A stretch of DNA of 64,000 bases, from contig NZ_CP050975.2 of assembly GCF_012273515.2 (NCBI RefSeq), positions 744,001 through 808,000 of the forward strand. The letters run 5' to 3'. The notes beneath the pieces were generated by a model. That model saw only the letters and a list, made by a program, of their open reading frames with translations, was not told where the DNA came from and ran no database searches. Each line of letters opens with the position of its first letter. The first letter of the stretch is position 1. The position numbers and the translations under genes are program-made. Source of the DNA: Streptomyces sp. RPA4-2 (lineage in GTDB: Bacteria; Actinomycetota; Actinomycetes; Streptomycetales; Streptomycetaceae). This document shows positions 4,182 to 37,941 of this stretch, piece by piece.

Positions 4182-7100
4182 TCACATCGTGCCCTTCGCC
4201 CCGCGGACACCCATGGGCCGCGCCCACTCCGCGCCCGACCGGAGTCCGGTGCCGCCGATCAGGCCCGTCCCGATGCCACCGGGGCCCGACAGACCGGAAA
4301 GGGACCACAGGCTCGACCCTCCGGCGTCGCGGTAACCGCTGGTGCCGCCGGCCGCGACCGGCCGGTCGTCCCGGTCCGTGAGCTGGAACCCGATCGTGTA
4401 GGTCCGGGTGACCGAACCGTTGGCCGAGGTCACCTTGATGGTGCGGGCGGTGAACTTGTGCCCGCTCGACGAGAGGACCGAACTGCCGTCGGTGACCTTC
4501 ACCCGCGCGCCGGACTGGGCCGGTACGGCGGAGACGGCCGGGATCCTGGCGTTCTTCGGCCAGTCGACGACGTACGTGGACACGTTCGGGTCGAACCCGT
4601 CGATCGCGGCACCTCCGACGGTGAGCGCCTTCGCGTCGGCGACACTGGCCTTGGTGGCGTCCGCGAAGTTCTTCACCGTGACCGACCCGTCGGCGCCCAC
4701 GACCACCTTCGCCGCCATCGCCGCCGCGAGGTTGATCCGCTGCCAGCTCGCTCCGCCGTCGGCGGTGAGGTCGAGCGGGTAACCGGAGTCCGTCGCGGTC
4801 TGCTCCAGGATCTGGGTGCGCTGCTCGGCGGTGAGGTCCGGGAAGGCCGTGATCAGCAGCGCCGCCGCGTCGGACGGCGTCTTGAGAGCCTGCCCGGCCT
4901 TGCCCACCTGGGAGAACCCGTAGGTCAGGCGCCGCGTGTACAGGTCGACGTCCTGCGCCTTGCTCAGACCGGCGTACGAGTCGCCCTCGCAGGCCGCGAG
5001 CGTGTCGCCGTATCCCTCCTTCTCGCACTGCGCGAGCAGCACGTTCTCCATCTCCGTGTGGGCCTGTGTCAGCAGCTTCGCGAAGTCGGGGTCCGCCCAC
5101 CGGTGCGCCACGGTGGCCTGACCGGAGATCCGGCCGCCCATGACGTCCAGCGGGTAGTGGAACCCGAGCACGATGCGGTTGTCCCCGTACTCGGAGGTGC
5201 GCGCGAGGATCGACGGTGCCAGCTCCGGCAGGAGCGTGGCCAGGACGGTGCCGGCCTCGTAGCCGCCGTAGGTGTGGCCGCTCGGGTAGGAGCCGCTGGT
5301 GGCGAGGCTGCCGTACGAGCCGTCCTGCGACTCGTAGATGGAACCGCCGTCGCCGACGAACCCGAGCCGCACGTACGGGCGCAGGTAGCCGTAGTGGTTC
5401 TTCGCCGCGTCGACCTTGTCCAGGTTCTGCGTGACGCGGGAGAACAGGGCGTTGGTCTTCGGCAGTTGGCCGCCCTTCAGGGCGTCGCTGTAGATCTGGC
5501 CGAGCCGGGATCCGAGGCTGTCGGCCATCGTGACGGTGGAGCTGTTCGTCGCGTCGACCTCGGCCCGGTCCACCTCCTTCTGTGTCGCCGCGTTGTTGAT
5601 CCGCACGGCGATCTTGTCGTTCTCAGCGGTCAGCCGGGTGCCCTGGGACACCTTGGTGTCGGCGCCGAGGATGCCGGAGCCGAGGTCATCGATGCCGTTG
5701 AGCAGGTCGTAGAAGTAGTCGGTCCCGTCGCCGGTCCCCGGCCACTTGTCCGACGTGTAGGTCGCGTTCAGCGTCTCGTCCGGGAAGGGGGACGCCACGT
5801 ACGTCGGGTCGGAGGCGTCCGCCGAGGCGGTCGCGACGGAGTTGTCCGCCGAGCCGGTCGTGACGGAGTCGTCCGAGGTCCCGGCCAGGGTGATCGCGGT
5901 GACGGTGGCCGTGTGCGCCTTCGCCTTGCCCGCGGTGGTGAGCAGCGCCGTGTCCGTCGTGGCGGAGAGGTGCGCGGTGGTTCCGTCGCCGAGGGCCACG
6001 GTGTAGCCGATGACCGGGAACCCGCCGTCGCCGGCCGGCCGCCAGGTCACCCGGACCTGCTTGCCGTCGGTGACCACGCCCGTGACGGTCGGCTTCTGCG
6101 GCTTGCCGCCGGCGGTCACCACGGGTGCGGTGGCCGCGCTCGGGCTCGAGGTGCCGACGGTGTTCACCGCGCGGACGCGTGCCGTGTACGACTTGCCGGC
6201 CCGCAGCCAGGTGAACGTCGTGCTCCGGCTGTCCGGATCGCGGATCTCGATCTGGTGGCCGTCGTCCAGAGTGACCTTGTAGCCGGTGACCGGTGAGCCG
6301 CCGGTGTCCTTGGGCGGGGCCCAGGCGACGGTCACGCTCGTACCGGACGACGTCGCCGACACCCTGTCAGGCGCGGCGGGCACCGTCCTGGGCTTCGTGG
6401 TGAGCGCGGACATGGCGCGCTGGAGCGCGTCGTACCGTGCGGCCAGGGTGGCGTCCGTGGCCGTGTCGCTCGCGACCGCGGTCTTCGCCTCGGCGAGTGC
6501 CTTGGTGAACGCCTTCCACGACGCGTCCGTGTAGCGCGCGTCCTGGAGGGCCGACGCGGTCGTGACCAGGTCCTCCAGTCGCAGTCTCGGCACCGGGATC
6601 AACTGCTTGGCGGCGAGGGTGAGGCTACGGGTCTGGGTGTCGGCCTCGAGCTGGGTCACGCCGTCGGCGTCGACGAGGGTGCGGGCGGCGGCGAGTTCGC
6701 GCCGGTACACACCGAAGTCGATCGTGTCGTAGCGCGCCGCGTCGGCGGAGAGCCCCTCGTACTGCTCGATCGCCTTCCGCAGGGCGGACTTGTCCGTGAC
6801 GGCGGGCGTCTCGACGTGGTTGAAGGTGATCCGGCCCAGGTTCGCGACGTACGGGTGCGAGGAGTCCGGGGTCGTCGTCAGCCGCAGGTAGACGGTGTGC
6901 GTGCCGCTGATCGCCTTGGGCAGCGTCAGACTCGTCGTCCCTCCGGACGACCACGCGGCTCCCGTGACCGGCAGCGGTACGGTCGCGTACGGCGTGCCGG
7001 GGTTGGCCGCGTCGAAGGAGTCCAGGTAGAGCTGGGCCGCGGAACCGGTGCCGCAGCGGGCGGAGTTGTTGACGTAGGTGATCGTGACGGTGCTCTTCGG

Positions 7101-10100
7101 GGAGGCGCCGAAGTCGACGTCCCCGTAGTTGAGCCAGGCTCCGTCGTAGGTGCCGCCGAGGTCGGTGGTGGAGCCCGACCCCGTCCAGCCGACCGGCTCG
7201 CTCTTGAGCCCGCCGCCGCTGTTCGCGCGGAACGCGGTGGCGTCGAAGCCGACGGGGGCGTTGGTGTCCTGCGTCAGCGCCAGCGAGTAGACGTTGCCCA
7301 CGTAGGGCTGGGACGCGGACTGCGTGCTGGAGACGAAGTCGGCGTACACGTCCTGGACGCCGGTGAAGACGCTCGGGTCGAGATGCACGCTCGTGGTGGC
7401 GATGGTTCCCCAGCCCGAACCGCTGTAGTCGAGCGGGACGGACACGGTCTTCGGGCCGTCCTTCGAACCCAGGTGCAGTTCGATGTGCGAGTCCGAGGCC
7501 GCGCGCGACTGGGGCTTGTCATAGCGGACGGTGACGGTGTCGGCGCCGTCGCGCAGGTCGGTGTCCTTCCATTCGGCCCACGCGCCGTTCGTCACGTTCT
7601 CGAAGATGCCGTTCGAGAGGTTGAGCGGGGCCGAACCGCCGCCGGTCGTGGTGCTGTTGACCGCGGTCAGCGTGGCGAGCGTGGTCGTCGGGGACGTGGA
7701 GACCTCGTACGGCGAGAACTGGTGCCAGTCGAAGTTCGACACCCACTGCTGGCCGGCCGGCGCGTGGAACACGAACGTCGCGCTCGACGCGTTCAGCAGG
7801 GCGGCCGGGTCGGTGACGGCCGCCTGCACCGTGCTGTAGTACTGCCAGCCGCCGGTTCCGGGGAGCTGGACGGTGGCGACGACGGGACCGTCGGCGGCGC
7901 CGGCGTGGATGTCGACGCTGCTCGGCTTCGCGTTCGTCGCCTGCGAGTTGGCGTAACGGACCGAGATGGTCCGCGGGGCGACCCCGCCGAAGTCCAGCTT
8001 CGTGTACCGCTCCCACGAACCCTCGGTGACGCCACCGAGGTTGCCGTCCGAGTTGTTCCGCTCGCTGACGAGGCTCGGGCCCTCCTTCTGGTCGGGGGAC
8101 TCGGCCTGCAGGACGGCGTAGCCGCCCTCGTCGATGGTGAGCGTGTCGACGGCGGACCGCAGCGCGGCGTCCGCGGCCATGACGGTGCCCGTCGCGGAGG
8201 TGGTGTCCGCGAGGACGGTCCGCGCGCGTTCGAGCGCCGACCGGAACAGGGTCCAGGAGCCGTCGGAGTAGTTGCCGCTGCGCACCAGGGACGCCTGGTC
8301 GACGAGTGCGCCGAGGGCCTTGCGGTGCACCGCGGCGGCGGAGATGACGAGCGGGTCGGTCGGGGATATCCCGGTCCCGTGCACCGTCGAGGCCCGCACG
8401 CCGTGGGCGAAGGCCGCGTCGGCGAACGTGATGCCGAAGTGCGCGTCGACCTGCGTGGTGCCGGTGAGCGACAGCGTCGCCGTGCGCGAGCCGGTGACGC
8501 GGAGGTCCGCCGTGACACCGCCCGGCAGGCCGGTCACGGTCGCCGCCCCCGTCTTGGTGAGGCTGGTTCCCTTGCGGGCGGCGAAGGACGCCGGTCCGGA
8601 CAGGGTGAGCTGCACGCCGCCGTCGACGCTGCCGTTCGCGGCCGTGTCGACGGTGCCCGGACGGGCGGAGACGACGGTGTCGCCCTTGCCCGTTCCCGCG
8701 CCGCCGTCACCCGTGTCGCCCGAGTCGGTGTTCAGCGAGTACGCGGGCTTCGTGTGGGCGCCCCACTGGGACGGCTTGGAGCCCATGGTGAAGTCCAGCG
8801 TTCCGCCGGAGATGATCTGCGAGTAGTCGAGCCACGTGTTGTCGAACCGCTTGCCGTTGAGGGTCGCGCTCTGCACGTAGTAGTTGCTCGGCGACACGCC
8901 GTCGGCCTTCACCGTGAACCGGCTGCCGTTGGCGTAGCTGATCGTCGTGGAGTCGAAGAACGGGCTGCCGATCTGGAACTGGCTGGAACCGGCGGTCACC
9001 GGGAACAGACCCAGGGCGGCACCGACGAACATGGTCGACATGGTGCCGGCGTCGTTGTCCATGGTCGGCAGGAAGCCGTTCGGGGAGAGCTTGTAGACCT
9101 GGGTCTTGACCGGCGGGGTGAACTGGCCGCCGGAGCTGGGGGCTTCGTTCGTGGAGCCCGTCGCGATGTAGCGGTTCCAGGTCGTGCCGGTGTAGATGGC
9201 GCGCACCCACTTCTGCGTCAGGCTCGGCTCACCGACGTAGTTGAACAGGTACGGGGCCTGCAGGTCGATCTCGTTCGCGTTGGAGTGCAGCATGGTCGAG
9301 CCGTCGTCGACGCTGGAGTCCTCGCCGAACATGTGCTTGACCGCGGCCTTGCCGGCCTTGTCGCCGCCCATGGCCTTGATGAGGCCGCCCATGTCGTACG
9401 CGTCGTACCAGTGGTACTGCCAGAGCGTGCCCTGGTAGAGGCCGGCCGCCTCGAACTTCTCGTAGTCCGCGCTCTGCCAGTCGCCGCCGGACGCCCGCGG
9501 GGTGAGCAGACCGACCTTGGTGCCGTCGGCCGCGGTCCAGGCGTCGGACTTCACGAGGTTGTCGATCGCCATGGTCGACTGGGTACGCAGCTTCTTCGCG
9601 TCCGCCTTCTTGCCGAGCGCGTCGGCGATGACGGAGAGAGCCCACTGGTCGTAGCCACGCTGGACAGTCGTACCGGGATCCCCGGTGACGTACCCCTGCC
9701 GCAGCTGCGCCCCTGTGTAGTACCCGGAGTACGACAGCAGCGCCGGGTACGCCTCGTCGAGCCGGTCGAAGTTCTTGAAGCCCTTCGACAGCGCGTCGGC
9801 GACCAGCACGGCCGAACGCTCCCAGCGCACGGTCGGAACCGAGTGGGTGAGGCTGCTGAGACTCTTGCCCGAGGCGCGCGCGTCGGCGAAGAGCTCGACG
9901 AGCGACTGCACCATGTCCCGGTAGGTGGCCGGGTCGATGTAGGCCTCGACGGAGTACTTGCGGAAGTCGTCCCAGGTGGACCAACCGTCGTAGTACGTGA
10001 AGCCGTTCGCCTTGTGCACCGCTCCGTCGGCGCCGCGGTACGTCCCGCTGGTGCTGGTGGCGTTCACCGGCAGCGCGTACATGCGGTACAGGTGCGTGTA

Positions 10101-11204
10101 GAACTCCTTGGTCAGCGTCGACCCGGGGTCGGACTTCGCGGAGGCGCGCACGTCGACGGCCCCGAGCGCACGGTTCCAGTCCGCCTTCGACTGCGCACGC
10201 GCCTGGTCGAAGGTGAGGTGGCCCACCTCGTTCCGCTGGTCGGTCGCGGCCTGTTCGGCGCTGATCGGCGACAGCGTGACGCGCAGCTCGATGTCCTGAC
10301 CGGCGGACTTGTCGAACCCGAGGACGGCGCCGGTGTCGGCGCCGTCCTGCGTGCTCGCGTCGCTCAGCTTGCCGTCGCCGCCCCAACTCTTCAGGGAGGT
10401 CACGGGTACGTTCGTGGTGGCGTCGTAATACAGCTGGTACGAGGCGCCGTTGAACGACCCGGCGATGAGCCCGCTGATCGAGCTGGTCCCGTCCGGGAGC
10501 GTCGTCGCCTTCATGGTCGAGCGGGTGCGGCTGGTGAAGTTGTTCGCCAGGTCGAGGACGAGCTCGGGGTCCGACCCGGCGGGGAAGCTGTACCGTTCGA
10601 GCGCCGTGCGCGTCGTCGCGGTCATCTCGGCCTTGATGCTGCCGGGGTCCTGCGTCACCGACGACGCGGTTCCGGAGACCGACCCGAGCCCCACCTGGTA
10701 GTAGCCGGGCGTCGCGGTCTCGTCGTCGTGGCTGTACGTGTGGGCGTACGTGCTCGGGGCGGGGCGCTTGTCGTACCGCACGGACGTCGGGACGACCAAC
10801 AGGTCGCCACCGCCTCCCGAGCCGCCGACGCCGTCGAGGTCCGTCGCGGTGAACCCGGCGATGTGGTCCTCGTTGTGGTCGTACCCGGAGTGGTTGCGGT
10901 CCGGCGTGGTCATCGGGTTGACCTTGGCCAGACTGTGCGGTGCCTGGGCGCCCGGCAGGTCGTTGCCGTCGTCACCGGCGGTCGACACGAACGGGTCGAC
11001 GAGTTTCGTGTAGTCCGTGCCGCCTGAGTTCCCCGCGGACGTGGTCGCGGCGGGCAAGGCCGCGGCCGCGCCACCACCCGCCAGCGCGGCGACGCCGAGC
11101 GCCCCGGTGAGCAGCGCGGCGACCGCCGCGCGCAGTGGCCGGCGGTGCCGGCCGGTTCTCGGCAGGACCCCGACGGGCATGGGTGGATGGGATCTGATGG
11201 GCAC
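4182..11204 (-). CDS. Secreted GH92 mannosidase fused to class A acid phosphatase (PAP2), 2340 aa
   Basis: GTG start with GGAGAGG upstream; signal peptide about residues 19-50. Residues ~65-815 are glycoside hydrolase family 92 (VDPFVSTAG, FTYYDGWSTWDDFR, APYLFNYVGEP, DNDAGTMS). Asp718 fits the conserved base position. Where GH92 alpha-mannosidases have Glu in EGNxWQY, this protein has Gln591 (LYQGTLWQY). Next come a FIVAR-like helix pair, three CBM6-like beta-sandwich segments (~1030-1460), two FIVAR repeats (~1470-1600) and two fibronectin III domains (~1607-1790). Residues ~1800-2160 form a phosphatase with the complete signature: K1935-x6-R1942-P, PSGH 1974-1977, and R2010-x5-H2016-x3-D2020. 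A cadherin-like sandwich and a Gly-rich tail close it, with no membrane anchor. I infer that it removes mannose from, and then dephosphorylates, phosphorylated mannans such as yeast cell-wall glycans. Confidence 0.93.
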   Translation of the reverse strand: MPIRSHPPMPVGVLPRTGRHRRPLRAAVAALLTGALGVAALAGGGAAAALPAATTSAGNSGGTDYTKLVDPFVSTAGDDGNDLPGAQAPHSLAKVNPMTTPDRNHSGYDHNEDHIAGFTATDLDGVGGSGGGGDLLVVPTSVRYDKRPAPSTYAHTYSHDDETATPGYYQVGLGSVSGTASSVTQDPGSIKAEMTATTRTALERYSFPAGSDPELVLDLANNFTSRTRSTMKATTLPDGTSSISGLIAGSFNGASYQLYYDATTNVPVTSLKSWGGDGKLSDASTQDGADTGAVLGFDKSAGQDIELRVTLSPISAEQAATDQRNEVGHLTFDQARAQSKADWNRALGAVDVRASAKSDPGSTLTKEFYTHLYRMYALPVNATSTSGTYRGADGAVHKANGFTYYDGWSTWDDFRKYSVEAYIDPATYRDMVQSLVELFADARASGKSLSSLTHSVPTVRWERSAVLVADALSKGFKNFDRLDEAYPALLSYSGYYTGAQLRQGYVTGDPGTTVQRGYDQWALSVIADALGKKADAKKLRTQSTMAIDNLVKSDAWTAADGTKVGLLTPRASGGDWQSADYEKFEAAGLYQGTLWQYHWYDAYDMGGLIKAMGGDKAGKAAVKHMFGEDSSVDDGSTMLHSNANEIDLQAPYLFNYVGEPSLTQKWVRAIYTGTTWNRYIATGSTNEAPSSGGQFTPPVKTQVYKLSPNGFLPTMDNDAGTMSTMFVGAALGLFPVTAGSSQFQIGSPFFDSTTISYANGSRFTVKADGVSPSNYYVQSATLNGKRFDNTWLDYSQIISGGTLDFTMGSKPSQWGAHTKPAYSLNTDSGDTGDGGAGTGKGDTVVSARPGTVDTAANGSVDGGVQLTLSGPASFAARKGTSLTKTGAATVTGLPGGVTADLRVTGSRTATLSLTGTTQVDAHFGITFADAAFAHGVRASTVHGTGISPTDPLVISAAAVHRKALGALVDQASLVRSGNYSDGSWTLFRSALERARTVLADTTSATGTVMAADAALRSAVDTLTIDEGGYAVLQAESPDQKEGPSLVSERNNSDGNLGGVTEGSWERYTKLDFGGVAPRTISVRYANSQATNAKPSSVDIHAGAADGPVVATVQLPGTGGWQYYSTVQAAVTDPAALLNASSATFVFHAPAGQQWVSNFDWHQFSPYEVSTSPTTTLATLTAVNSTTTGGGSAPLNLSNGIFENVTNGAWAEWKDTDLRDGADTVTVRYDKPQSRAASDSHIELHLGSKDGPKTVSVPLDYSGSGWGTIATTSVHLDPSVFTGVQDVYADFVSSTQSASQPYVGNVYSLALTQDTNAPVGFDATAFRANSGGGLKSEPVGWTGSGSTTDLGGTYDGAWLNYGDVDFGASPKSTVTITYVNNSARCGTGSAAQLYLDSFDAANPGTPYATVPLPVTGAAWSSGGTTSLTLPKAISGTHTVYLRLTTTPDSSHPYVANLGRITFNHVETPAVTDKSALRKAIEQYEGLSADAARYDTIDFGVYRRELAAARTLVDADGVTQLEADTQTRSLTLAAKQLIPVPRLRLEDLVTTASALQDARYTDASWKAFTKALAEAKTAVASDTATDATLAARYDALQRAMSALTTKPRTVPAAPDRVSATSSGTSVTVAWAPPKDTGGSPVTGYKVTLDDGHQIEIRDPDSRSTTFTWLRAGKSYTARVRAVNTVGTSSPSAATAPVVTAGGKPQKPTVTGVVTDGKQVRVTWRPAGDGGFPVIGYTVALGDGTTAHLSATTDTALLTTAGKAKAHTATVTAITLAGTSDDSVTTGSADNSVATASADASDPTYVASPFPDETLNATYTSDKWPGTGDGTDYFYDLLNGIDDLGSGILGADTKVSQGTRLTAENDKIAVRINNAATQKEVDRAEVDATNSSTVTMADSLGSRLGQIYSDALKGGQLPKTNALFSRVTQNLDKVDAAKNHYGYLRPYVRLGFVGDGGSIYESQDGSYGSLATSGSYPSGHTYGGYEAGTVLATLLPELAPSILARTSEYGDNRIVLGFHYPLDVMGGRISGQATVAHRWADPDFAKLLTQAHTEMENVLLAQCEKEGYGDTLAACEGDSYAGLSKAQDVDLYTRRLTYGFSQVGKAGQALKTPSDAAALLITAFPDLTAEQRTQILEQTATDSGYPLDLTADGGASWQRINLAAAMAAKVVVGADGSVTVKNFADATKASVADAKALTVGGAAIDGFDPNVSTYVVDWPKNARIPAVSAVPAQSGARVKVTDGSSVLSSSGHKFTARTIKVTSANGSVTRTYTIGFQLTDRDDRPVAAGGTSGYRDAGGSSLWSLSGLSGPGGIGTGLIGGTGLRSGAEWARPMGVRGAKGTM

Positions 11205-11593
11205 GTAACCTCTCCAGCGTCGTCATACGCACGCACGGTTCGGCCCCACCAGAAGACAACGTTGTCAGCCCGGGGCACCGGGCGCGCAACCCAGGGTGAG
11301 ACGGAAGTGAACACACAGGATGGCACCCGAACACCGGATTGCACCCCGCCGCGTTCACAACCTCCGCCATGAGACACGGAGAAGGCGTACAACGGGCGAA
11401 CAATATTCGTACAGCACGCGCGTACCGGACGCCACGAAGACGACGCGCAGGCAAAGCGGTCATGGAGCCCCAAGGGTGAAGCGCCGTCAGCCGATGCTTC
11501 TCCTACGCCTCGTACCCGGCACACCTCGGTGCAGGACAAGCCCGCCGCCCGGAACAGGCGTGGGCCTCCCGCGAGCGGCCAGGGGATGAGAAA
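11205..11593. other. Divergent intergenic region between GH92 gene and EACC1 gene
   Basis: 389 bases without a convincing gene. It must hold the promoters of both divergent units. It contains the 12-bp palindrome at 11255-11266 and, around 11395-11410, a locally AT-rich stretch with CGAACAATATTCG. I could not assign -35/-10 boxes with confidence. Confidence 0.6.
11255..11266. promoter_or_regulatory. LacI-family-type operator GACAACGTTGTC
   Basis: A perfect 12-bp palindrome with the central CG typical of LacI-family operators, 51 bases upstream of the GH92 start. Such sites commonly repress Streptomyces glycoside hydrolase genes until the sugar appears. No lacI-like gene is in the window, so the regulator would act from elsewhere. 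Confidence 0.55.
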
Positions 11594-12034
11594 GTGATGG
11601 GCGTGACGGACGACACGGAGGATGCGAGCGCCACCGTACTGCTGACCGCGGGCGACGACGCGAGCGCGAACGAACTGCGTTCCTTACAGACGTGGTTGAA
11701 CGATGTCGATGAGGTCCGGGGCCGTGCTGAGCTGAGGGAGGGCCCGCCGGTCCCCGGCACGCTGGGACCGGTCGTCGACGGACTGCTCGTGACTCTCGGG
11801 CCGGGCGGCGCCGTCACCGCGCTGGCGACCGCGCTGGTCGCCTGGATCCGGCACCGGCGCAGTGAGGTGACCCTCAAGGTGACCCGCGGCGACGGCGCGT
11901 CCTTCGAGGTGTCGGCGAAGCGGGTCCAGTTGCTGAGCGCCGCCGAACTGCGCGGATTCGTGGGCGAGTTGGCCGCACAACTGGCCTCGGATGAAACAGC
12001 GGCCCGGCCGGATGCGGACGCCGGTCCGTCATGA
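11594..12034 (+). CDS. Effector-associated constant component EACC1 family protein
   Basis: Up to 146 residues; GTG 11594 or ATG 11597 could start it. An N-terminal LRSLQTWLND helix, a central Gly-rich amphipathic segment (VVDGLLVTLGPGGAVTALATAL) ending AWIRHRR, and a small C-terminal beta/alpha part (VTLKVTRGDGASFEV) match the EACC1 pattern. Comparative genomics describes EACC1 as the constant partner of caspase, trypsin-like and NTPase effectors in actinobacterial conflict systems. The stop overlaps the start of the caspase-nSTAND gene (ATGA), so the two should be made together. Codon 31 is TTA (11684-11686), suggesting bldA-dependent translation. The molecular role of EACC1 is not established. 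Confidence 0.8.
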   Translation: MMGVTDDTEDASATVLLTAGDDASANELRSLQTWLNDVDEVRGRAELREGPPVPGTLGPVVDGLLVTLGPGGAVTALATALVAWIRHRRSEVTLKVTRGDGASFEVSAKRVQLLSAAELRGFVGELAAQLASDETAARPDADAGPS

Positions 12035-15000
12035 CGGATCTGACGGGGGACGGTGTCCGGATCCTGCTGATCGGCACGCAGACCCATGCGGGGCCGACAC
12101 TGACGTCCGTGCCCGCCGTGTCCCGCACGGTCGAAGAGCTGCACCGCAAGCTCCTGACGGTATGCCGGGTACGGCCCGCATCGATACGAACGGTCCTTGA
12201 TCCTCCCGACGCATGGATGATGGCCGCCGCCATCGCGGAGGAGGCACAGCGCGCCCAGGCCGTACTGCTGATCTACTACGTGGGCCATGGCCTGATCGGG
12301 CCCGGGGACGAGCTGTACCTGGCCGCGACCAGCACCGACCGGCTGACCCCCGGCCTCGCCGCCCACCAGGCACTGCCGTTGTCCGCGCTCCAGCAGGCCC
12401 TCACTGTCTGCCGGGCCTCGTCCGTCGTCGTCGTGCTCGACTGCTGTTTCTCCGGGCGCGCCAAGCTCGGCGCCGGCGCCCCGCCCCCGGCGATCACGCT
12501 GCCCGGAGCGCATGGAATCCACCTCCTGGCCTCGGCCGAGCAGTTGGCGCTGGCCCCGGAGGACGCCGACTACACCGCTTTCACCGGCGAACTGATCAAC
12601 CTGCTCGACCGTGGCGACCCCCGCGGGCCCCGGCTGCTGACTCTCGACGCCGTCTACGACTTCCTGTTCCGCACCTTGCGGGCCAAGGGCGGACCGCTGC
12701 CGCGCCGCCAGGCGGGTGACCGCTCGGGGGACCTGGTGATCGCGGTGAACGCCGCCCAGCCGGAGCCGGCGACCGATCCGGAGGACGAGGCCGGAACCGT
12801 ACCGGGGCGCTGCCCCTACCTCGGCCTCGAAGCATTCGCCGTCGACGACGCCGAACTGTTCCACGGACGGGAGCGACTCGTCGAGGAGCTCCTGGAGGCG
12901 GCCGCCGGAGCGATGAGCGCCGGACGGCCGGTGATCGTCGTCGGGCCGTCGGGTGTGGGCAAGACGTCGCTGCTGCACGCCGGGCTGCTGGCCGCGTTGC
13001 GCCGGGGCGCCCCACAGCTACCGGGGTCCACCGGGTGGCCATGGACAGTGCTCACGCCCGGCGACGATCCGGTGCACGCGCTGGCCGCCGTGCTGTATCC
13101 GGACGGCCCCGCCGGGGCCGACGCCCTGATCGAGGACCCCGGATCGGCCGTACCGCTGGCCCGACGGTTCTTGGAGGACCGCGGTCACGACCGGCTGGTG
13201 CTGGTGGTCGACCGGCTGGAGGAGTTGTTCACCGCCGGCGAGCGGGAACGTACGGCGTTCTGCGCCGCGCTGGCGGCGCTGGCCGCGGACGGCGGGCGCA
13301 CCCTCGTCGTCATGGCGCTGCGCGCCGACTTCTACGGCCAGGCCCAGGCGCTGCCTGTCCTGGCCGCGGTCCTGCGGGAGCACCAGGTACAGGCCGCGCC
13401 CATGCGGTTGGAAGAGCTGCGGGCCGCGATCGAGGAGCCCGCCGCCACGGTCGGGGTCCGGCTGGACGAGGGCCTGGCAGACCTGGTGTTGCACGAACTC
13501 GACGCCGTGAATCCACCAGGACCGCAGGCCGGCAGTCTGCCGTTGCTCTCCCACGCCTTGCGGGCGACCTGGTCCCAGGGCGGCGGCGGCCGCCTGACCG
13601 TCGCCGGTTACCGCGCGAGCGGCGGAGTCGTCGCCGCGCTGGCGACCACCGCCGACCGCGTCTACGGCGAACTCGACGCCGGGGGCCAGGATGCGCTGCG
13701 TCACATGCTGCCCCGCCTGGTGCGGATCGGCGACGGCACCGTGGACACCGGGCGCCCTGCCGACCGCGATGCGCTTCTCGACGGCACGTCGAACCGTCGG
13801 GCGGCCGAGGACGCGCTGCACCGCTTGGCCCGGGAGCGGCTGCTGGTCCTCCACGAGCGAACCGTACGGCTCAGTCATGACGCGCTGCTCCGGGCGTGGC
13901 CGCGACTGCACGGCTGGATCGACGCGGACCGCGACTGGCTGCGTATCCGGCAGCAGTTGGCCGCCGACGCCGACGTGTGGTGGCGGTCCGATCACGACCC
14001 GGCCCTGCTGTACCGGGGGAGCAAGCTGGCCGCGGCTCGGGAAGGCGCCGCGAACGCGGGACGCGCCAAGGCCTACGAACCACGGCTGACGGAGTTCCTC
14101 GACGCGTCCTTGCGCCAGGAACGGCGCTCGGCGCGGGTGCGTACCGCCGCACTCACGGTACTGGTCGTGCTCTTCCTGCTCGCGACGGCCGGCGGCGTCA
14201 CCGCAACCGTCTACCAGCATCAGGCCGATGCTCAGCGTCGCCATGCCGTGGCCCGCCTGGTGGCGACCGAGGCCGCCGGCCTGCGTGACACCCAGCCGGG
14301 CCTCGCCAAGCAACTCAGCGTCGCGGCCTACCGGATGGATCCGGGAATCAGCGTCGCCCCGCTCATCTCGATGCTCGAGACCCCTGGTTCCTACGACAGC
14401 CAGGACTCCGTCGTCGACATCGCCCGCACCGGCGACGGCCGCACGATGGCCTTGTCGACCGGTCTGTCCGTCGTCCTGTGGAGGACGTCGGGGGGACGGG
14501 CGGCCACCATCGACCTGCCCGGCGCCGGAGCCGTCGCGCTCAGTCCCGATGGGCGGCTGCTCGCGGCGCTCGCCCCACCCTCGGCCCCAACACCCCGGCC
14601 CAGTACCGGCGAGAACGCGGCGACAGTGCACCTCTGGTCCATCGCCGATCCCGCGCACCCGTCCCGACTCCCCCTGCCGCGGGCCCCGTCCCAGGCGGTC
14701 ACCGCTCTCGCTTTCGCCCCCGACGGCCACCTGCTCGCCTTGGGCACCGCCGCCGGCGCCGTCCGCAGATGGAATCTCACTGATCCCGAGTCACCAAGAG
14801 CCCTGGCGGAACTCACCGGGCCCAGCGCCCAGGTGGACTCCCTCGCTTTCACGCCCGGCAGCCACCTGCTGGCCGCGTCCGACGCCGACGGCAGGGTCCG
14901 GCTGTGGGACACCACCGACCCGGATCGCACCGCCCCGGTGTCGACGATGACCGGCTCGCCACCCCCCACCACGAAGCCGCACGGGATACCGCACCGCGTC

Positions 15001-16491
15001 TCCTTCCGTGCCGACGGCACCGTACTGGCCGCGCCCGGGGACGGTCACTCCGATGGTGTGCGCCTGTGGGGTCTCGCCGACCCACGACATCCGAAGCTGC
15101 TGGCGAAGCTCAACAACACCTTGCAGGACTGCACCGACCAGCTGATCTCCACCGCCTTCAGCCCTGCCGGTGACCTGCTCGCCACGCCCTGCGGCACCGA
15201 GGTGTACCTGTGGGACACGACCGACCCGGCGCACACCGTCCAGGTCAACGAGCTCACCGAACCCGACACCTACCAAAGCGGTGCCGTCCCCGCGCTCTTC
15301 GCCCCGAGCCGCGCTCCGGTGCTTCTCCTGCACGCCACGACCACGGGCGTCCACGTGTGGGACGTCACCAACGCACCACGCCTGGGCGCGGCTTCCAGCC
15401 TCGGCACCTCCCCTTCGGGCTTCGATCTCACCGCGCAGTTCAGCGGCGGCAGCCGGCGGCTGCTCATCGTCCACGGCGCCGACCATGCCGCCCTGTGGGA
15501 CATGTCCGGACCGCCTCCCCACCGCAAGCTGGCCGATCTGCCCGGCAGCGGGGACCCCGCCTCGGGCGCGGCCGCGTTCAGTCCCGACGGCAGCGTCCTG
15601 GCCGACGCCGAAAGGGCGGGCGGTGCCCCCGTCGTCCGGCTGCGCGACACCGCTCATCCGAAAGCGGTGCTCACGACCCTCCCCGGTCTCGCCAACGGTG
15701 TCGGAGCCCTCGCGTACAGCGCGGACGGCCACGTCCTGGCCGTCTCGGACACCGGAGACGCCACCCATCAGGCCGCACCGTCGACGGTTCACTTGTTCGA
15801 TGTGAGTCGGCCGGCGCATCCCCGGCGGCTCGCCGTCATCCATGCCAGGGCCTTCCACTTGGTCTTCTCCCCCCGCGGCCGTCTGCTCGTCGGCACTTTT
15901 GACGGTCGGCTGCTGCTGTGGGACACCACCGACGCCCGGCACCCGGTCGCGGGGACGCCACGACGGCTCACCCCGGGCTCGCTCGACGCCGTACCCGCGT
16001 TCCGCGGAGACGGACGCCTGCTCGCCGTCACGGACACAGGTGACACCGTCCGCCTGTGGTCCGTCGAGCACAATCGGATCGCGGCGGAACCAGTGGGCGC
16101 GATACGTGCTCTCGGCACCGGCGGATCAATCGCGTTCACCCCGGACGGCCGCACTCTCGCCATGACCAGCACCGGCTCGCTCACCGGCTTCGCCGGGACC
16201 GCCCTGGGCCACATCGAACTGTGGGACGTGACCGACCCCGCGATCCCGGTCTGGCGCGCCTCGTTCGGCTTCAACCAGGTGGACCTCGGGGGTGAGAGCA
16301 TCTCCTTCAGCCCGCAGAGTCCCACCCCCTACCTCGCGGTGACCAGCAGCGTCGTGGCCGTGTGGAACGTCGAACCGAGCTCCGTCGTCAGGCATGTATG
16401 CCTGAGCGCCGGCGAGCCCGTCAGCCGGGCGCAATGGGCGCGGTACGTCCCGGACTTGCCCTTCCACGCGCCGTGCCCGGCAGGACGGTGA
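12031..16491 (+). CDS. Caspase-like / nSTAND NTPase / transmembrane / WD40-repeat conflict-system protein
   Basis: 1486 residues in four parts. Residues ~8-240 are a caspase-like (metacaspase) peptidase with both catalytic motifs: His86 in YYVGHG and the DCCFSG motif with Cys139. Residues ~260-680 are a STAND NTPase of the nSTAND1 type, with CPYLGLEAF, a Walker A GPSGVGKTS (305-313) and a Walker B-like VVDRLEELF (Asp394). A hydrophobic helix at ~705-728 is followed by ~750 residues of WD40-type repeats (LAFSPDG/VRLWD-like motifs) likely to form one or two propellers. A ligand sensed by the propeller would drive NTP-dependent assembly and unleash the protease, by analogy with NLR-like bacterial defence ATPases. 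Topology puts protease and propeller on opposite sides if the helix spans the membrane. It is coupled to EACC1. Confidence 0.93.
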   Translation: MTDLTGDGVRILLIGTQTHAGPTLTSVPAVSRTVEELHRKLLTVCRVRPASIRTVLDPPDAWMMAAAIAEEAQRAQAVLLIYYVGHGLIGPGDELYLAATSTDRLTPGLAAHQALPLSALQQALTVCRASSVVVVLDCCFSGRAKLGAGAPPPAITLPGAHGIHLLASAEQLALAPEDADYTAFTGELINLLDRGDPRGPRLLTLDAVYDFLFRTLRAKGGPLPRRQAGDRSGDLVIAVNAAQPEPATDPEDEAGTVPGRCPYLGLEAFAVDDAELFHGRERLVEELLEAAAGAMSAGRPVIVVGPSGVGKTSLLHAGLLAALRRGAPQLPGSTGWPWTVLTPGDDPVHALAAVLYPDGPAGADALIEDPGSAVPLARRFLEDRGHDRLVLVVDRLEELFTAGERERTAFCAALAALAADGGRTLVVMALRADFYGQAQALPVLAAVLREHQVQAAPMRLEELRAAIEEPAATVGVRLDEGLADLVLHELDAVNPPGPQAGSLPLLSHALRATWSQGGGGRLTVAGYRASGGVVAALATTADRVYGELDAGGQDALRHMLPRLVRIGDGTVDTGRPADRDALLDGTSNRRAAEDALHRLARERLLVLHERTVRLSHDALLRAWPRLHGWIDADRDWLRIRQQLAADADVWWRSDHDPALLYRGSKLAAAREGAANAGRAKAYEPRLTEFLDASLRQERRSARVRTAALTVLVVLFLLATAGGVTATVYQHQADAQRRHAVARLVATEAAGLRDTQPGLAKQLSVAAYRMDPGISVAPLISMLETPGSYDSQDSVVDIARTGDGRTMALSTGLSVVLWRTSGGRAATIDLPGAGAVALSPDGRLLAALAPPSAPTPRPSTGENAATVHLWSIADPAHPSRLPLPRAPSQAVTALAFAPDGHLLALGTAAGAVRRWNLTDPESPRALAELTGPSAQVDSLAFTPGSHLLAASDADGRVRLWDTTDPDRTAPVSTMTGSPPPTTKPHGIPHRVSFRADGTVLAAPGDGHSDGVRLWGLADPRHPKLLAKLNNTLQDCTDQLISTAFSPAGDLLATPCGTEVYLWDTTDPAHTVQVNELTEPDTYQSGAVPALFAPSRAPVLLLHATTTGVHVWDVTNAPRLGAASSLGTSPSGFDLTAQFSGGSRRLLIVHGADHAALWDMSGPPPHRKLADLPGSGDPASGAAAFSPDGSVLADAERAGGAPVVRLRDTAHPKAVLTTLPGLANGVGALAYSADGHVLAVSDTGDATHQAAPSTVHLFDVSRPAHPRRLAVIHARAFHLVFSPRGRLLVGTFDGRLLLWDTTDARHPVAGTPRRLTPGSLDAVPAFRGDGRLLAVTDTGDTVRLWSVEHNRIAAEPVGAIRALGTGGSIAFTPDGRTLAMTSTGSLTGFAGTALGHIELWDVTDPAIPVWRASFGFNQVDLGGESISFSPQSPTPYLAVTSSVVAVWNVEPSSVVRHVCLSAGEPVSRAQWARYVPDLPFHAPCPAGR

Positions 16492-34308: not shown

Positions 34309-35691
34309 ATGACCAGCCAACGCCTCACGCGCTCAACCGTGTTGCGCGCCGCGCTCACCACCTCGCTGCTCGCGCTCTCGGCCGGTGCCCTGACCGCGGC
34401 ACCCGCCTCCGCAGCCACCGGTACGATCACGGGTCTCGCGGGCAAGTGCCTCGACGTGGCCGGGGCGAACTCCGCGAACGGAACGGCCGTACAGCTCTAC
34501 GACTGCAACGGGACCACCGCCCAGCAGTGGACGGTCGGCTCCGACGGAACGATACGGGCCCTCGGCAAGTGCCTTGACATCACCGGCAACTCGACCGCGG
34601 ACGGTGCCAGGCTCCAGCTGTGGGACTGCTCGGGCGGCGCGAACCAGAGGTGGACGGTCTCCGCGGCCCGCGACATCGTCAATCCGCAGGCCAACAAGTG
34701 CGCCGACGTCACGGGCAACACCTCGGCGAACGGCGCCCCGATACAGATCTGGACCTGTACGGGCAGCGCCAACCAGAAGTGGACCGTGCCCGCCGCGGAC
34801 GGCGGCGGCACGAATCCCAACGCGCCGATGGCCGTCGCCCCGTACCTCTACAACGGCTGGGGCAGCCCGCCGAACCCCACCACCGTCATGAACGCCACCG
34901 GCGTCAAGTGGTTCACGCTGGCCTTCGTGCTCAGCAACGGCTACTGCAACCCGCAGTGGGACGGCGGCCGCGCCCTGACCGGCGGCGTCGACCAGCAGAC
35001 GGTCAACACCGTACGGGCGGGCGGCGGTGACATCATCCCGTCGTTCGGCGGCTACAGCGGCAACAAGCTGGAGAGTTCCTGCTCGAGTGCCGGGGAGCTG
35101 GCGTCCGCGTACCAGAAGGTCATCAACGCCTACGGGCTCAAGGCCATCGACATCGACATCGAGGCCGACGCCTACAGCAACACGACGGTCCAACAGCGCA
35201 CCGTGGACGCGCTCAAGACCGTCAAGGCCAACAACCCGGGCATCAAGGTGTACGTCACCATCGGAACCGGGCAGAACGGCCCCGACACGGGACTCATCAA
35301 CCGGGCCGCCTCGTCCGGCCTGACCGTGGACAGCTGGACGATCATGCCGTTCGACTTCGGTGGCGCCGGCCAGAACATGGGCACGCTCACCCTGCGCGCG
35401 GCCGAGGGCCTCAAGACGGCACTCAAGAACGCCTACGGCTACAGCGACGACCAGGCGTACCGGGACATGGGCATCTCCTCCATGAACGGGATCACCGACC
35501 AGAACGAGACGGTCACCGTCGCCGACTTCCAGACCATCCTCGGCTACGCCCAGCAGCACCACCTGGCGCGGCTGACCTTCTGGTCGGTCAACCGCGACCG
35601 CCCCTGCACGAGCGGCGTCGCCGACAGCTGCTCCGGGGTGGGCCAGCAGGACTGGGACTACACACGCGTCCTCGCGAAGTACACCGGCTGA
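34309..35691 (+). CDS. Secreted GH18 chitinase with N-terminal ricin-type (CBM13) lectin domain
   Basis: 460 residues. Signal peptide ~1-36 (cut after ASA). Residues ~40-160 form a beta-trefoil lectin with three repeats, each with Cys pairs and QxW motifs (AQQW, NQRW, NQKW). Residues ~172-460 are a GH18 barrel with the catalytic DxDxE motif DIDIE; Glu285 is the acid. It resembles ChiD-type chitinases. It is the first gene of a three-gene secreted operon under a chitinase-type promoter. Substrate is probably chitin or a related GlcNAc polymer. Confidence 0.93.
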   Translation: MTSQRLTRSTVLRAALTTSLLALSAGALTAAPASAATGTITGLAGKCLDVAGANSANGTAVQLYDCNGTTAQQWTVGSDGTIRALGKCLDITGNSTADGARLQLWDCSGGANQRWTVSAARDIVNPQANKCADVTGNTSANGAPIQIWTCTGSANQKWTVPAADGGGTNPNAPMAVAPYLYNGWGSPPNPTTVMNATGVKWFTLAFVLSNGYCNPQWDGGRALTGGVDQQTVNTVRAGGGDIIPSFGGYSGNKLESSCSSAGELASAYQKVINAYGLKAIDIDIEADAYSNTTVQQRTVDALKTVKANNPGIKVYVTIGTGQNGPDTGLINRAASSGLTVDSWTIMPFDFGGAGQNMGTLTLRAAEGLKTALKNAYGYSDDQAYRDMGISSMNGITDQNETVTVADFQTILGYAQQHHLARLTFWSVNRDRPCTSGVADSCSGVGQQDWDYTRVLAKYTG

Positions 35692-35724: not shown

Positions 35725-37941
35725 GTGTTCCGATCAACAAGACCTTCCGGCCGCCGCCGGATACCGAAAGCGCTCACCGCGGTCGCCCTCGTGGCGACCA
35801 CCGTCTCGGGCCTGGCGGCCGCCACGCAGAACGAGGCGACCGCCGCGGCCGCCGCCCTGCCCACCGGCTGGGCCACGGTCGTCAACGCGGCCAGCGGCAA
35901 GTGCGTCGACGCGCGCGCGGCCGCGACGGCGAACGGCACCGCCGTCCAGCAGTACGCGTGCAACAGCAGCCAGGCCCAGCAGTGGCAGATCGCGGCCACG
36001 TCCGGCGGTTACTCCCAGGTCGACAACCGCGCCGACGCCACCAAGGCGTGGGACGTCACCGATGTCTCGACGGCGGACAGCGCGCTGGTGCAGCTGTGGA
36101 CGTACAGCGGCGGCAACAACCAGCAGTGGCAGGCCGTGGCGGACTCCGGCGGCTCCTACCACTTCGTCAACCGCAACAGCGGCAAGTGCCTGGACGTACC
36201 CAGCGCGTCCACCGCGGACAGCGTGCAGCTCCAGCAGTACACGTGCAACGGCACCGCGGCCCAGTCGTTCTTCGTCAATCCCGTCGACGCGACACCGCCG
36301 CCCGGGACCCCGGACCTCGGCCCGAACGTCACCGTCTTCGATCCGTCGACGCCCGCGGCCACGATCCAGAGCAGCCTCAACTCGGCTTTCTCGCAACAGG
36401 AGACCAACCAGTTCGGCACCGCCCGCAAGGCCTTCCTCTTCAAGCCGGGCACCTACGACGCCAACGCCAACGTCGGCTTCTACACCCAGGTCGCCGGCCT
36501 CGGCCTCTCCCCCGACGACGTCAATATCCGCGGCGCGGTGCACGCCGAGGCCGACTGGTTCCAGGGCAACGCCACCCAGAACTTCTGGCGGTCGGCGGAG
36601 AACCTGTCGGTGACCCCGACGGGCGGCTCGGACCGCTGGGCGGTGTCGCAGGCCGCTCCGTACCGGCGGATGCATCTGCGCGGAAACCTCGCCCTGGACG
36701 ACGGCGGTTGGTCCAGCGGCGGCTACATGGCCGACACGAAGATCGACGGCCAGGTCAACTCCGGCTCGCAGCAGCAGTGGCTGTCACGGAACACCGAGTG
36801 GGGCAGCTGGACCGGCTCCAACTGGAACATGGTCTTCGTCGGCTCCAAGAACGCCCCCGCCAACAGCTTCCCCAACCCGCCGTACACCACGGTCGCCCAG
36901 GCGCCGGTCACCCGTGAGAAGCCCTTCCTCTACGTCGACTCCGCGGGCGCCTGGAAGGTGTTCGTGCCCTCCGTACGCACCAACACCAGCGGCACCACGT
37001 GGAGCGCAGGTACCCCGGCGGGCGCGTCGCTGCCCCTCTCCGACTTCTTCATCGTGAAGCCGGGCGCGACGGCCGCCCAGATGAACGACGCGCTCGCCCA
37101 GGGCAAGAACCTGCTGGTGACGCCCGGGGTCTATCACCTCGACCAGACGCTGAAGGTGACCCGGCCCGACACCGTCGTCCTCGGCCTCGGCCTGGCCACG
37201 CTCATCCCCGACAACGGCATCACGGCGATGACGGTCGCGGACGTGGACGGGATCCAGCTCGCGGGTCTGCTGATCGACGCCGGGACCACCAACTCCGCCC
37301 AGCTCGTGGAGATGGGTCCGAGCGGCTCCTCCGCCGACCACAGCGCGGACCCCAGTTCTCTGCACGACGTCTTCTTCCGCATCGGCGGCGCGGGCGTCGG
37401 AAAGGCCACCACCAGCCTGACCATCAACAGTGACGACGTCATCGGCGACCACCTGTGGCTGTGGCGCGCCGACCACGGCAGCGGTGTGGGCTGGACCAGC
37501 AACACCGCCGACACCGGCCTCGTCGTCAACGGCGACGACGTGACGATGTACGGCCTGTTCGTCGAGCACTACCAGAAGTACCAGACCCTCTGGAACGGCA
37601 ACGGCGGCCGCACGTACTTCTACCAGAACGAGATGCCGTACGACCCGCCCAACCAGGCCGCCTGGATGAACGGCTCCACCCAGGGCTACGCCGCCTACAA
37701 GGTGGCGAACTCGGTGACGAGTCACCAGGTGTACGGATTCGGCAGCTACTGCTACTTCAACGTCAACTCGTCCGTCGCCGCCGAGCACGCCATCGAGGCG
37801 CCGAACAACGCGAACGTGAAGTTCAAGGACATGGTGACGGTCTCCCTGGGCGGCACGGGCACCATCCGGCATGTCATCAACGACCGGGGCGGCCCGTCCA
37901 ACTCCGCCACCAACGTCGCCAACCTCGTCAGCTACCCGTGA
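35725..37941 (+). CDS. Secreted ricin-lectin plus right-handed beta-helix protein
   Basis: 738 residues from a GTG start with AGGAG upstream. Signal peptide ~1-42. Residues ~48-185 are a CBM13 trefoil (GKCVDARAAATANGTAVQQY, NNQQW). Residues ~195-738 look like a pectin-lyase-type beta-helix (ATIQSSLNSAF, AFLFKPGTYD, NLLVTPGVYHLDQTLKV, VVLGLGLATLIPD). Relatives are loosely annotated as adenylyl cyclase or coagulation-factor-like; I do not trust those names. It may be a glycan hydrolase or lyase acting with the chitinase, 33 bases upstream. Catalytic residues not identified. Confidence 0.85.
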   Translation: MFRSTRPSGRRRIPKALTAVALVATTVSGLAAATQNEATAAAAALPTGWATVVNAASGKCVDARAAATANGTAVQQYACNSSQAQQWQIAATSGGYSQVDNRADATKAWDVTDVSTADSALVQLWTYSGGNNQQWQAVADSGGSYHFVNRNSGKCLDVPSASTADSVQLQQYTCNGTAAQSFFVNPVDATPPPGTPDLGPNVTVFDPSTPAATIQSSLNSAFSQQETNQFGTARKAFLFKPGTYDANANVGFYTQVAGLGLSPDDVNIRGAVHAEADWFQGNATQNFWRSAENLSVTPTGGSDRWAVSQAAPYRRMHLRGNLALDDGGWSSGGYMADTKIDGQVNSGSQQQWLSRNTEWGSWTGSNWNMVFVGSKNAPANSFPNPPYTTVAQAPVTREKPFLYVDSAGAWKVFVPSVRTNTSGTTWSAGTPAGASLPLSDFFIVKPGATAAQMNDALAQGKNLLVTPGVYHLDQTLKVTRPDTVVLGLGLATLIPDNGITAMTVADVDGIQLAGLLIDAGTTNSAQLVEMGPSGSSADHSADPSSLHDVFFRIGGAGVGKATTSLTINSDDVIGDHLWLWRADHGSGVGWTSNTADTGLVVNGDDVTMYGLFVEHYQKYQTLWNGNGGRTYFYQNEMPYDPPNQAAWMNGSTQGYAAYKVANSVTSHQVYGFGSYCYFNVNSSVAAEHAIEAPNNANVKFKDMVTVSLGGTGTIRHVINDRGGPSNSATNVANLVSYP

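Follow-up and report, generated by a model that had tools for sequence, protein, structure and literature searches.

A GH92-acid phosphatase fusion in Streptomyces sp. RPA4-2 as a candidate two-step enzyme for phosphorylated fungal mannan

Why a single secreted polypeptide should join a mannosidase-family module to an acid phosphatase is the question raised by one gene in the 64,000-nucleotide (nt) stretch of Streptomyces sp. RPA4-2 DNA analysed here (NZ_CP050975.2, 744,001-808,000; hereafter the window, the positions of which are used as coordinates). The open reading frame (ORF) at 4182-11204 on the reverse strand has a GTG start and encodes 2340 amino acids, and its GC content at third codon positions (GC3) of 0.95 fits the expectation for a high-GC genome, so it is a real gene. 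An earlier note on this DNA had placed a GH92 domain at one end of the protein and a class A phosphatase at the other, and this division is borne out by Pfam and by motifs. Domains were assigned by Pfam cut-offs: GH92N (residues 68-312), GH92 (from 318), three CBM6, two fn3 and PAP2 (1932-2034) lie above them, including both GH92 domains (PF17678, 173.8 bits; PF07971, 287.1 bits) and PAP2 (36.5 bits against a cut-off of 27.2), while the FIVAR and cadherin-like matches fall below. The N-terminus is a probable secretion signal. Judged by sequence, the protein is a GH92-PAP2 fusion with a conserved architecture, a bifunctional variant of parts known singly, and it is quite likely a secreted enzyme that uncaps and then dephosphorylates fungal phosphorylated mannan or high-mannose N-glycans.

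The closest solved relative of the GH92 module is CcMan5 of Cellulosimicrobium cellulans (2xsg, 4aq0), with 1099 bits over residues 62-827; the deposited CcMan5 was compared over its crystallised GH92 module only. In residue-by-residue alignment, the acid-site stretch LYQGTLWQYHWYDAYDM is identical between the two, Gln included, and the same alignments set Gln591 opposite a Glu in 6f8z, 6f91 and 7zgm. The first two of these structures are BT3130 and BT3965 (PMC10167667), for which Glu535 and Glu531, respectively, have been reported as general acids, while Man-alpha-1,6-PO4-Man phosphodiester linkages have been reported as the target of CcMan5 (PMC5930347). Gln591 does stand at the acid position, as the earlier note proposed, and its statement that uncapping GH92 enzymes also carry Gln holds for CcMan5. 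Instead of the catalytic Glu of an ordinary alpha-mannosidase, the module has this Gln in a CcMan5 context, and by alignment it is of the CcMan5 type. The seven other GH92 genes of the source genome, which has eight, all have Glu at the site. In the acid-site comparison, for which 5 short or partial rows were set aside, Gln was read in 12 CcMan5-type rows, which represent 9 different genes, and the 27 other catalytic ORFs comprised 24 with Glu, one with Thr beside Glu (an alignment shift) and 2 unaligned. The GH92 tree separates 37 CcMan5-type rows, the Gln-type GH92s of C. cellulans among them, from 5 Glu-type rows (100/100). Moreover, the Asp-x-Asp motif at 716/718 is retained, and the base role in Bt3990 has been assigned to Asp642/Asp644 (PMC10167667).

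At the other end of the protein, the phosphatase domain is intact and of class A according to its motifs and predicted fold. The full class A signature that the earlier note had claimed was found (K1935-x6-RP, PSGH at 1974-1977 and R2010-x5-H2016-x3-D2020), and the predicted structure has the class A fold. PhoC, PhoN and the acid phosphatase of Escherichia blattae have 17-28% identity to the domain in structural alignments; unlike free class A non-specific acid phosphatases, it is tethered to GH92 and CBM6 modules. Families missing from the list of structural matches are not counted as evidence. A phosphatase region 90.5% identical to it is present in the record of a 678-kb Streptomyces plasmid (NZ_CP109366.1, 183260-184429), where the annotation reads glycoside hydrolase domain-containing protein.

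The search for other GH92-PAP2 architectures, suggested as a check by the earlier note, was run over 5.8 billion proteins and gave 254 matches among the best 7995 candidates scored, of which 120 were listed. Among these listed matches, GH92 and PAP2 stand in one protein in 120/120, the acid site has Gln in 120/120 and the phosphatase signature is intact in 119/120, the lone exception having the same degenerate stretch as S. lushanensis (locus L003). With the fusion present in all 120, a chimaera confined to a single assembly is excluded. A few homologues are named acid phosphatase in UniRef, and the proteins are already in databases. From GTDB genomes, 77 loci were kept out of 213 relatives; Gln was read in 73/77 and Glu in 0/77, the other 4 being unreadable in the ORF examined. 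Gln and an intact signature stand in one ORF in 34 of the 38 streptomycete loci, the exceptions being the degenerate L003, L004, which is cut short by the end of its contig, and two loci with broken frames, L016 and L060. The fusion is also present in 8 of the 39 non-streptomycete loci (two Leifsonia, Schumannella, an Actinomycetales bin, Mangrovihabitans, Micromonospora, Actinoplanes and Mycetocola). A further 23 rows (of 49 stretches, the window's included) were located by the phosphatase motif itself, and their motif invariance is not counted as evidence. A Gln-type GH92 was also observed in the gammaproteobacterium Solimonas flava (L068).

The phosphatase is linked to GH92 in other arrangements as well. 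In Bifidobacterium jacchi (L067, 3-7440; L109), the order is reversed, with the phosphatase N-terminal to GH92 in one frame, which breaks further on in the record; no further N-terminal fusion was found in Bifidobacterium, where this GH92 occurs in 1/112 genomes only. In C. arenosum and C. terreum, the Gln-type GH92 gene is followed directly by the phosphatase ORF, and in Luteimicrobium the phosphatase is convergent with and adjoins the Gln-type GH92. Outside the streptomycetes there are 30 unfused loci, for which 25 genomes were searched (L051, L054, L069, L072 and L076 were left out, and Gln is unreadable in one of the 25, L077); all seven genomes with a close phosphatase have the copy beside a GH92 gene, and KH10 has only a more distant phosphatase relative, away from the Gln-type gene. 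In the window's own family, 4 of 41 genomes have a close phosphatase, and exactly these 4 show the split Pfam GH92 match of this type (the Gln itself was read in two); 7 others had weaker relatives only. The phosphatase tree unites the fused copies (91/94), adds B. jacchi to them (95/86) and sets the neighbouring-gene copies apart as a separate group (99/91), while the GH92 tree places Luteimicrobium and C. arenosum/C. terreum on separate branches, where two changes are forced and one is obtained in 0% of bootstraps. Given these separate branches and groups, the linkage probably arose more than once, the alternative being one old association with later losses. Unfused Salinispora, nested among fused Micromonosporaceae in the GH92 tree, looks like a loss of the fusion. 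Class A phosphatases of about 700 amino acids lying about 1 kb from a Glu-type GH92 gene in three genomes that belong to one genus (L110, L111, L112) belong to a distant phosphatase group and were set aside.

In addition to linkage, the upstream region ties the gene to other mannosidases. The palindrome upstream of the window gene is TGACAACGTTGTC. In the 700 nt preceding the GH92 module, a match to GACAACGTTGTC in which one mismatch was allowed was found in 37/37 streptomycete loci with upstream sequence available (35 exact) and, across all loci, in 42/75, against 10/1992 background windows of equal length. The whole genome holds 28 such sites (condensed from 42 strand hits, with 2 for the reversed control), and 8 of these precede the probable start codons of six GH92 genes out of the eight. 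Two of the six have the site within the longest ORF call, yet ahead of the first start codon that a signal-like stretch follows. The same palindrome preceding the window gene and other mannosidase genes suggests a palindrome-defined mannosidase regulon. An exact site stands at a divergent LacI/ROK pair (G000:C1 1388212, L165), and a LacI protein would be the putative regulator acting through the palindrome. No report of a GH92 regulon was found in the literature searched. Further sites, including those on G000:C1 at 7896383 (L167), 8911745 (L169) and 9840293 (L166), are located before two GH2 enzymes whose Ig domains are of the mannosidase type, before an F5/8-C protein and before an alpha-galactosidase-like gene; a wider glycan regulon is possible, and several other one-mismatch sites, inside genes or by unrelated ones, may be due to chance. 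A GH85 endo-N-acetylglucosaminidase (L171, 8763-10538) is clustered with LacI and transporter genes, and the one-mismatch site there, inside the preceding transporter gene, was not counted. A related palindrome, GACAGCGCTGTC, occurs at a similar upstream position in Gln-type GH92 genes of Micrococcales (L034-L036, L043, L046, L048, L049, L051, L071, L072 and L076).

With regard to mechanism and ALTERNATIVES, the domain identity, catalytic residues, conservation, repeated linkage and common operator-like site were read directly, and we infer from them both activities, their order, the substrate, a gain from tethering, CBM6 binding and LacI repression. The CBM6 modules would anchor the enzyme on mannan, where the Gln-type GH92 would remove the capping mannose from Man-alpha-1-phosphate-6-Man, with water activated by Asp716/Asp718. 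Phosphate is a good leaving group, which offers a reason for the Gln: since the phosphate departs as an anion, uncapping would need no proton donor. The tethered class A phosphatase would then take the exposed 6-phosphate via a phospho-histidine intermediate at His2016, and the resulting neutral chain would be trimmed by the co-regulated Glu-type GH92 mannosidases. Both the repeated linkage to GH92 and the operator-like site common to most GH92 genes point in the same direction as such uncapping and subsequent dephosphorylation. The substrate may be phosphorylated high-mannose N-glycans generally, not phosphomannan alone. The more specific proposal, namely a dedicated two-step, one-chain phosphomannan enzyme, a phosphatase repeatedly joined to Gln-type GH92s (by C-terminal fusion, N-terminal fusion, tandem gene and convergent gene) and a LacI-type regulon degrading fungal high-mannose glycans, appears moderately probable.

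Several observations weigh against this two-step proposal. The structure model is weak at the PSGH loop (predicted local distance difference test, pLDDT, 44-66), and S. lushanensis (L003) retains the fusion though its phosphatase site is degenerate at two motifs. In four Cellulosimicrobium (C. cellulans NBRC 15516 and three others), the phosphatase follows one or two Glu-type GH92s, and the Gln-type gene lies on another contig. A close phosphatase is absent in 18 of the 25 unfused genomes searched, and uncapping can occur without one, since only 7/25 have it. In the order to which Cellulosimicrobium belongs, 297 genomes were surveyed (with no more than 9 and 3 candidates scored in each), and phosphatase relatives were found in 23, Gln-type GH92 in 4 and both in 1; neither this survey nor the 25 unfused genomes revealed general co-occurrence of the two outside the linked lineages. 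Of the 22 other genomes with the phosphatase, 12 were fetched with flanks, and a GH92 was found near the solo phosphatase relative in 0/12, 3 of these stretches being shorter than 10 kb. As for the regulon, the seventh GH92 gene has its site, the ninth, some 43 codons into the coding sequence, and the GH92 gene at 1,334,595 has no site.

The main rival explanation, that the GH92 uncaps while the phosphatase is a general phosphate scavenger anchored on fungal mannan and accepting any soluble phosphoester, is considered unlikely. It would suit the class A acid phosphatases, which are broad phosphomonoesterases, as well as the relatives of this phosphatase that have no GH92 nearby. However, the phosphatase is repeatedly linked to GH92, its gene has the palindrome of the other GH92 genes, and PHO-box regulation found no support in 65 upstream regions, none of which had a PHO-box-like pattern, although the simple pattern used makes this a weak test. 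Much less likely, and indeed improbable, is an ordinary or weak alpha-mannosidase in which the Gln is a lineage quirk and the role of the phosphatase is unrelated. Sequence cannot tell the substrate, and Ala and Gln variants of Bt3990 have been reported to retain some mannobiose activity (PMC10167667); yet the acid-site stretch is identical to that of CcMan5, which has been reported to act on Man-PO4-Man (PMC5930347). Against a mere quirk, moreover, the rows read across the clade all have the Gln. A lectin-like, carbohydrate-binding role of the Gln-type GH92 without catalysis has the smallest probability of all: a lost acid often marks a pseudo-enzyme, but here the Asp-x-Asp base pair is retained and identity over the entire module is 64-69% with four orthologues, which come from three other genera.

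The proposed two-step enzyme was also compared with known proteins over its accessory modules. The Cellulosimicrobium orthologue L053 (1722 amino acids) aligns co-linearly with residues 64-1601 of the window protein (52% identity), FIVAR and CBM6 modules included, and the three Cellulosimicrobium orthologues compared (L053 and two others) end before the fn3-fn3-PAP2-cadherin cassette. Identity to C. cellulans L049 is 64% for GH92, 45% for the second FIVAR region and 48% for the first CBM6 (to its first); the third CBM6 is 48-53% identical to the second and third of C. cellulans, and the middle one only about 31-32%. At E 1e-3, fn3 and PAP2 have no match in L049, and the fn3 modules are unmatched in both Cellulosimicrobium orthologues compared module by module; both fn3 and PAP2 match Leifsonia and Micromonospora at 48-61%. 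CcMan5 has been reported to have three CBM6, of which CcCBM6a binds yeast mannan and CcCBM6b showed no binding (PMC5798181). The first CBM6 of the window protein matches the module of CcMan5 type; the counterpart of that module binds yeast mannan, and by analogy the first CBM6 may bind mannan as well. NnGH92 of Neobacillus novalis is likewise a GH92 with accessory domains but has the general acid Glu944, and no phosphatase is mentioned in its description, the main text of which has no word starting with 'phosph' (PMC10167667). By contrast with the Bacteroides yeast-mannan utilisation systems, the window protein puts both predicted activities in one secreted polypeptide.

No description of a GH92-phosphatase fusion was found in the open-licence literature, a scope without the original CcMan5 paper (Tiels 2012), and none of the fate of the phosphate exposed by natural relatives of CcMan5 was found in the literature searched, where uncapping is treated mostly in yeast glyco-engineering and lysosomal-enzyme papers. 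A C. cellulans alpha-mannosidase (Tiels 2012) has been reported to expose mannose-6-phosphate on a yeast-made lysosomal enzyme (PMC9246025), and a native fused enzyme could destroy the mannose-6-phosphate needed in such applications. The architecture proposes a fate for the exposed phosphate, a tethered two-step enzyme, and the joined parts are a possible way for a soil streptomycete to clear charged groups from fungal glycoproteins. If this is true, a second step would be named for CcMan5-type enzymes wherever a phosphatase is linked, the phosphatase of the Cellulosimicrobium gene clusters would become a candidate of interest, and the common palindrome would make the streptomycete use of fungal high-mannose glycans testable.

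Table 1. Features of the fusion gene and its upstream region in window coordinates.
Feature	Coordinates	Strand	Basis
Palindromic operator candidate GACAAC/GTTGTC, 51 nt upstream of GTG start	11255..11266		Pattern search
GH92-FIVAR-CBM6x3-FIVAR-fn3x2-PAP2-cadherin-like secreted protein, 2340 amino acids	4182..11204	-	ORF and Pfam
Probable secretion signal, residues 1-50 (basic n-region, hydrophobic stretch, Ala-rich cleavage region)	11055..11204	-	Read by eye
GH92 catalytic module, CcMan5 type, residues 62-827	8724..11021	-	phmmer to 2xsg/4aq0, 1099 bits
Gln591 at general-acid position	9432..9434	-	Alignment
Asp716-Asn-Asp718, candidate general-base pair (MDNDAGTM)	9051..9059	-	Analogy with Bt3990 Asp642/Asp644
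FIVAR domain 1, residues 962-1022	8139..8321	-	Pfam, sub-threshold (25.0 bits vs 29.2)
Three CBM6 modules, residues 1028-1466	6807..8123	-	Pfam
FIVAR region 2, residues 1467-1605, end of portion common to Cellulosimicrobium orthologues	6390..6806	-	Pfam and alignment
Two fn3 modules, residues 1606-1745	5970..6389	-	Pfam
Class A acid phosphatase domain, residues 1813-2068	5001..5768	-	Pfam, predicted fold, structural alignments
Phosphatase motif K-x6-RP, residues 1935-1943	5376..5402	-	Motif reading
Phosphatase motif PSGH, residues 1974-1977	5274..5285	-	Motif reading
Phosphatase motif R-x5-H-x3-D, residues 2010-2020 (R2010, H2016, D2020)	5145..5177	-	Motif reading
Cadherin-like domain, residues 2193-2272	4389..4628	-	Pfam, sub-threshold (18.8 bits vs 24.2)

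Elsewhere in the window, an EACC1 protein followed by a 1486-amino-acid nSTAND1-WD40 protein (11594-16491, forward strand) resembles a STAND-type conflict or signalling system. As well, two adjacent ORFs on the forward strand (34309-35691 and 35725-37941) have ricin-type lectin domains, and one of the two also matches GH18 weakly.
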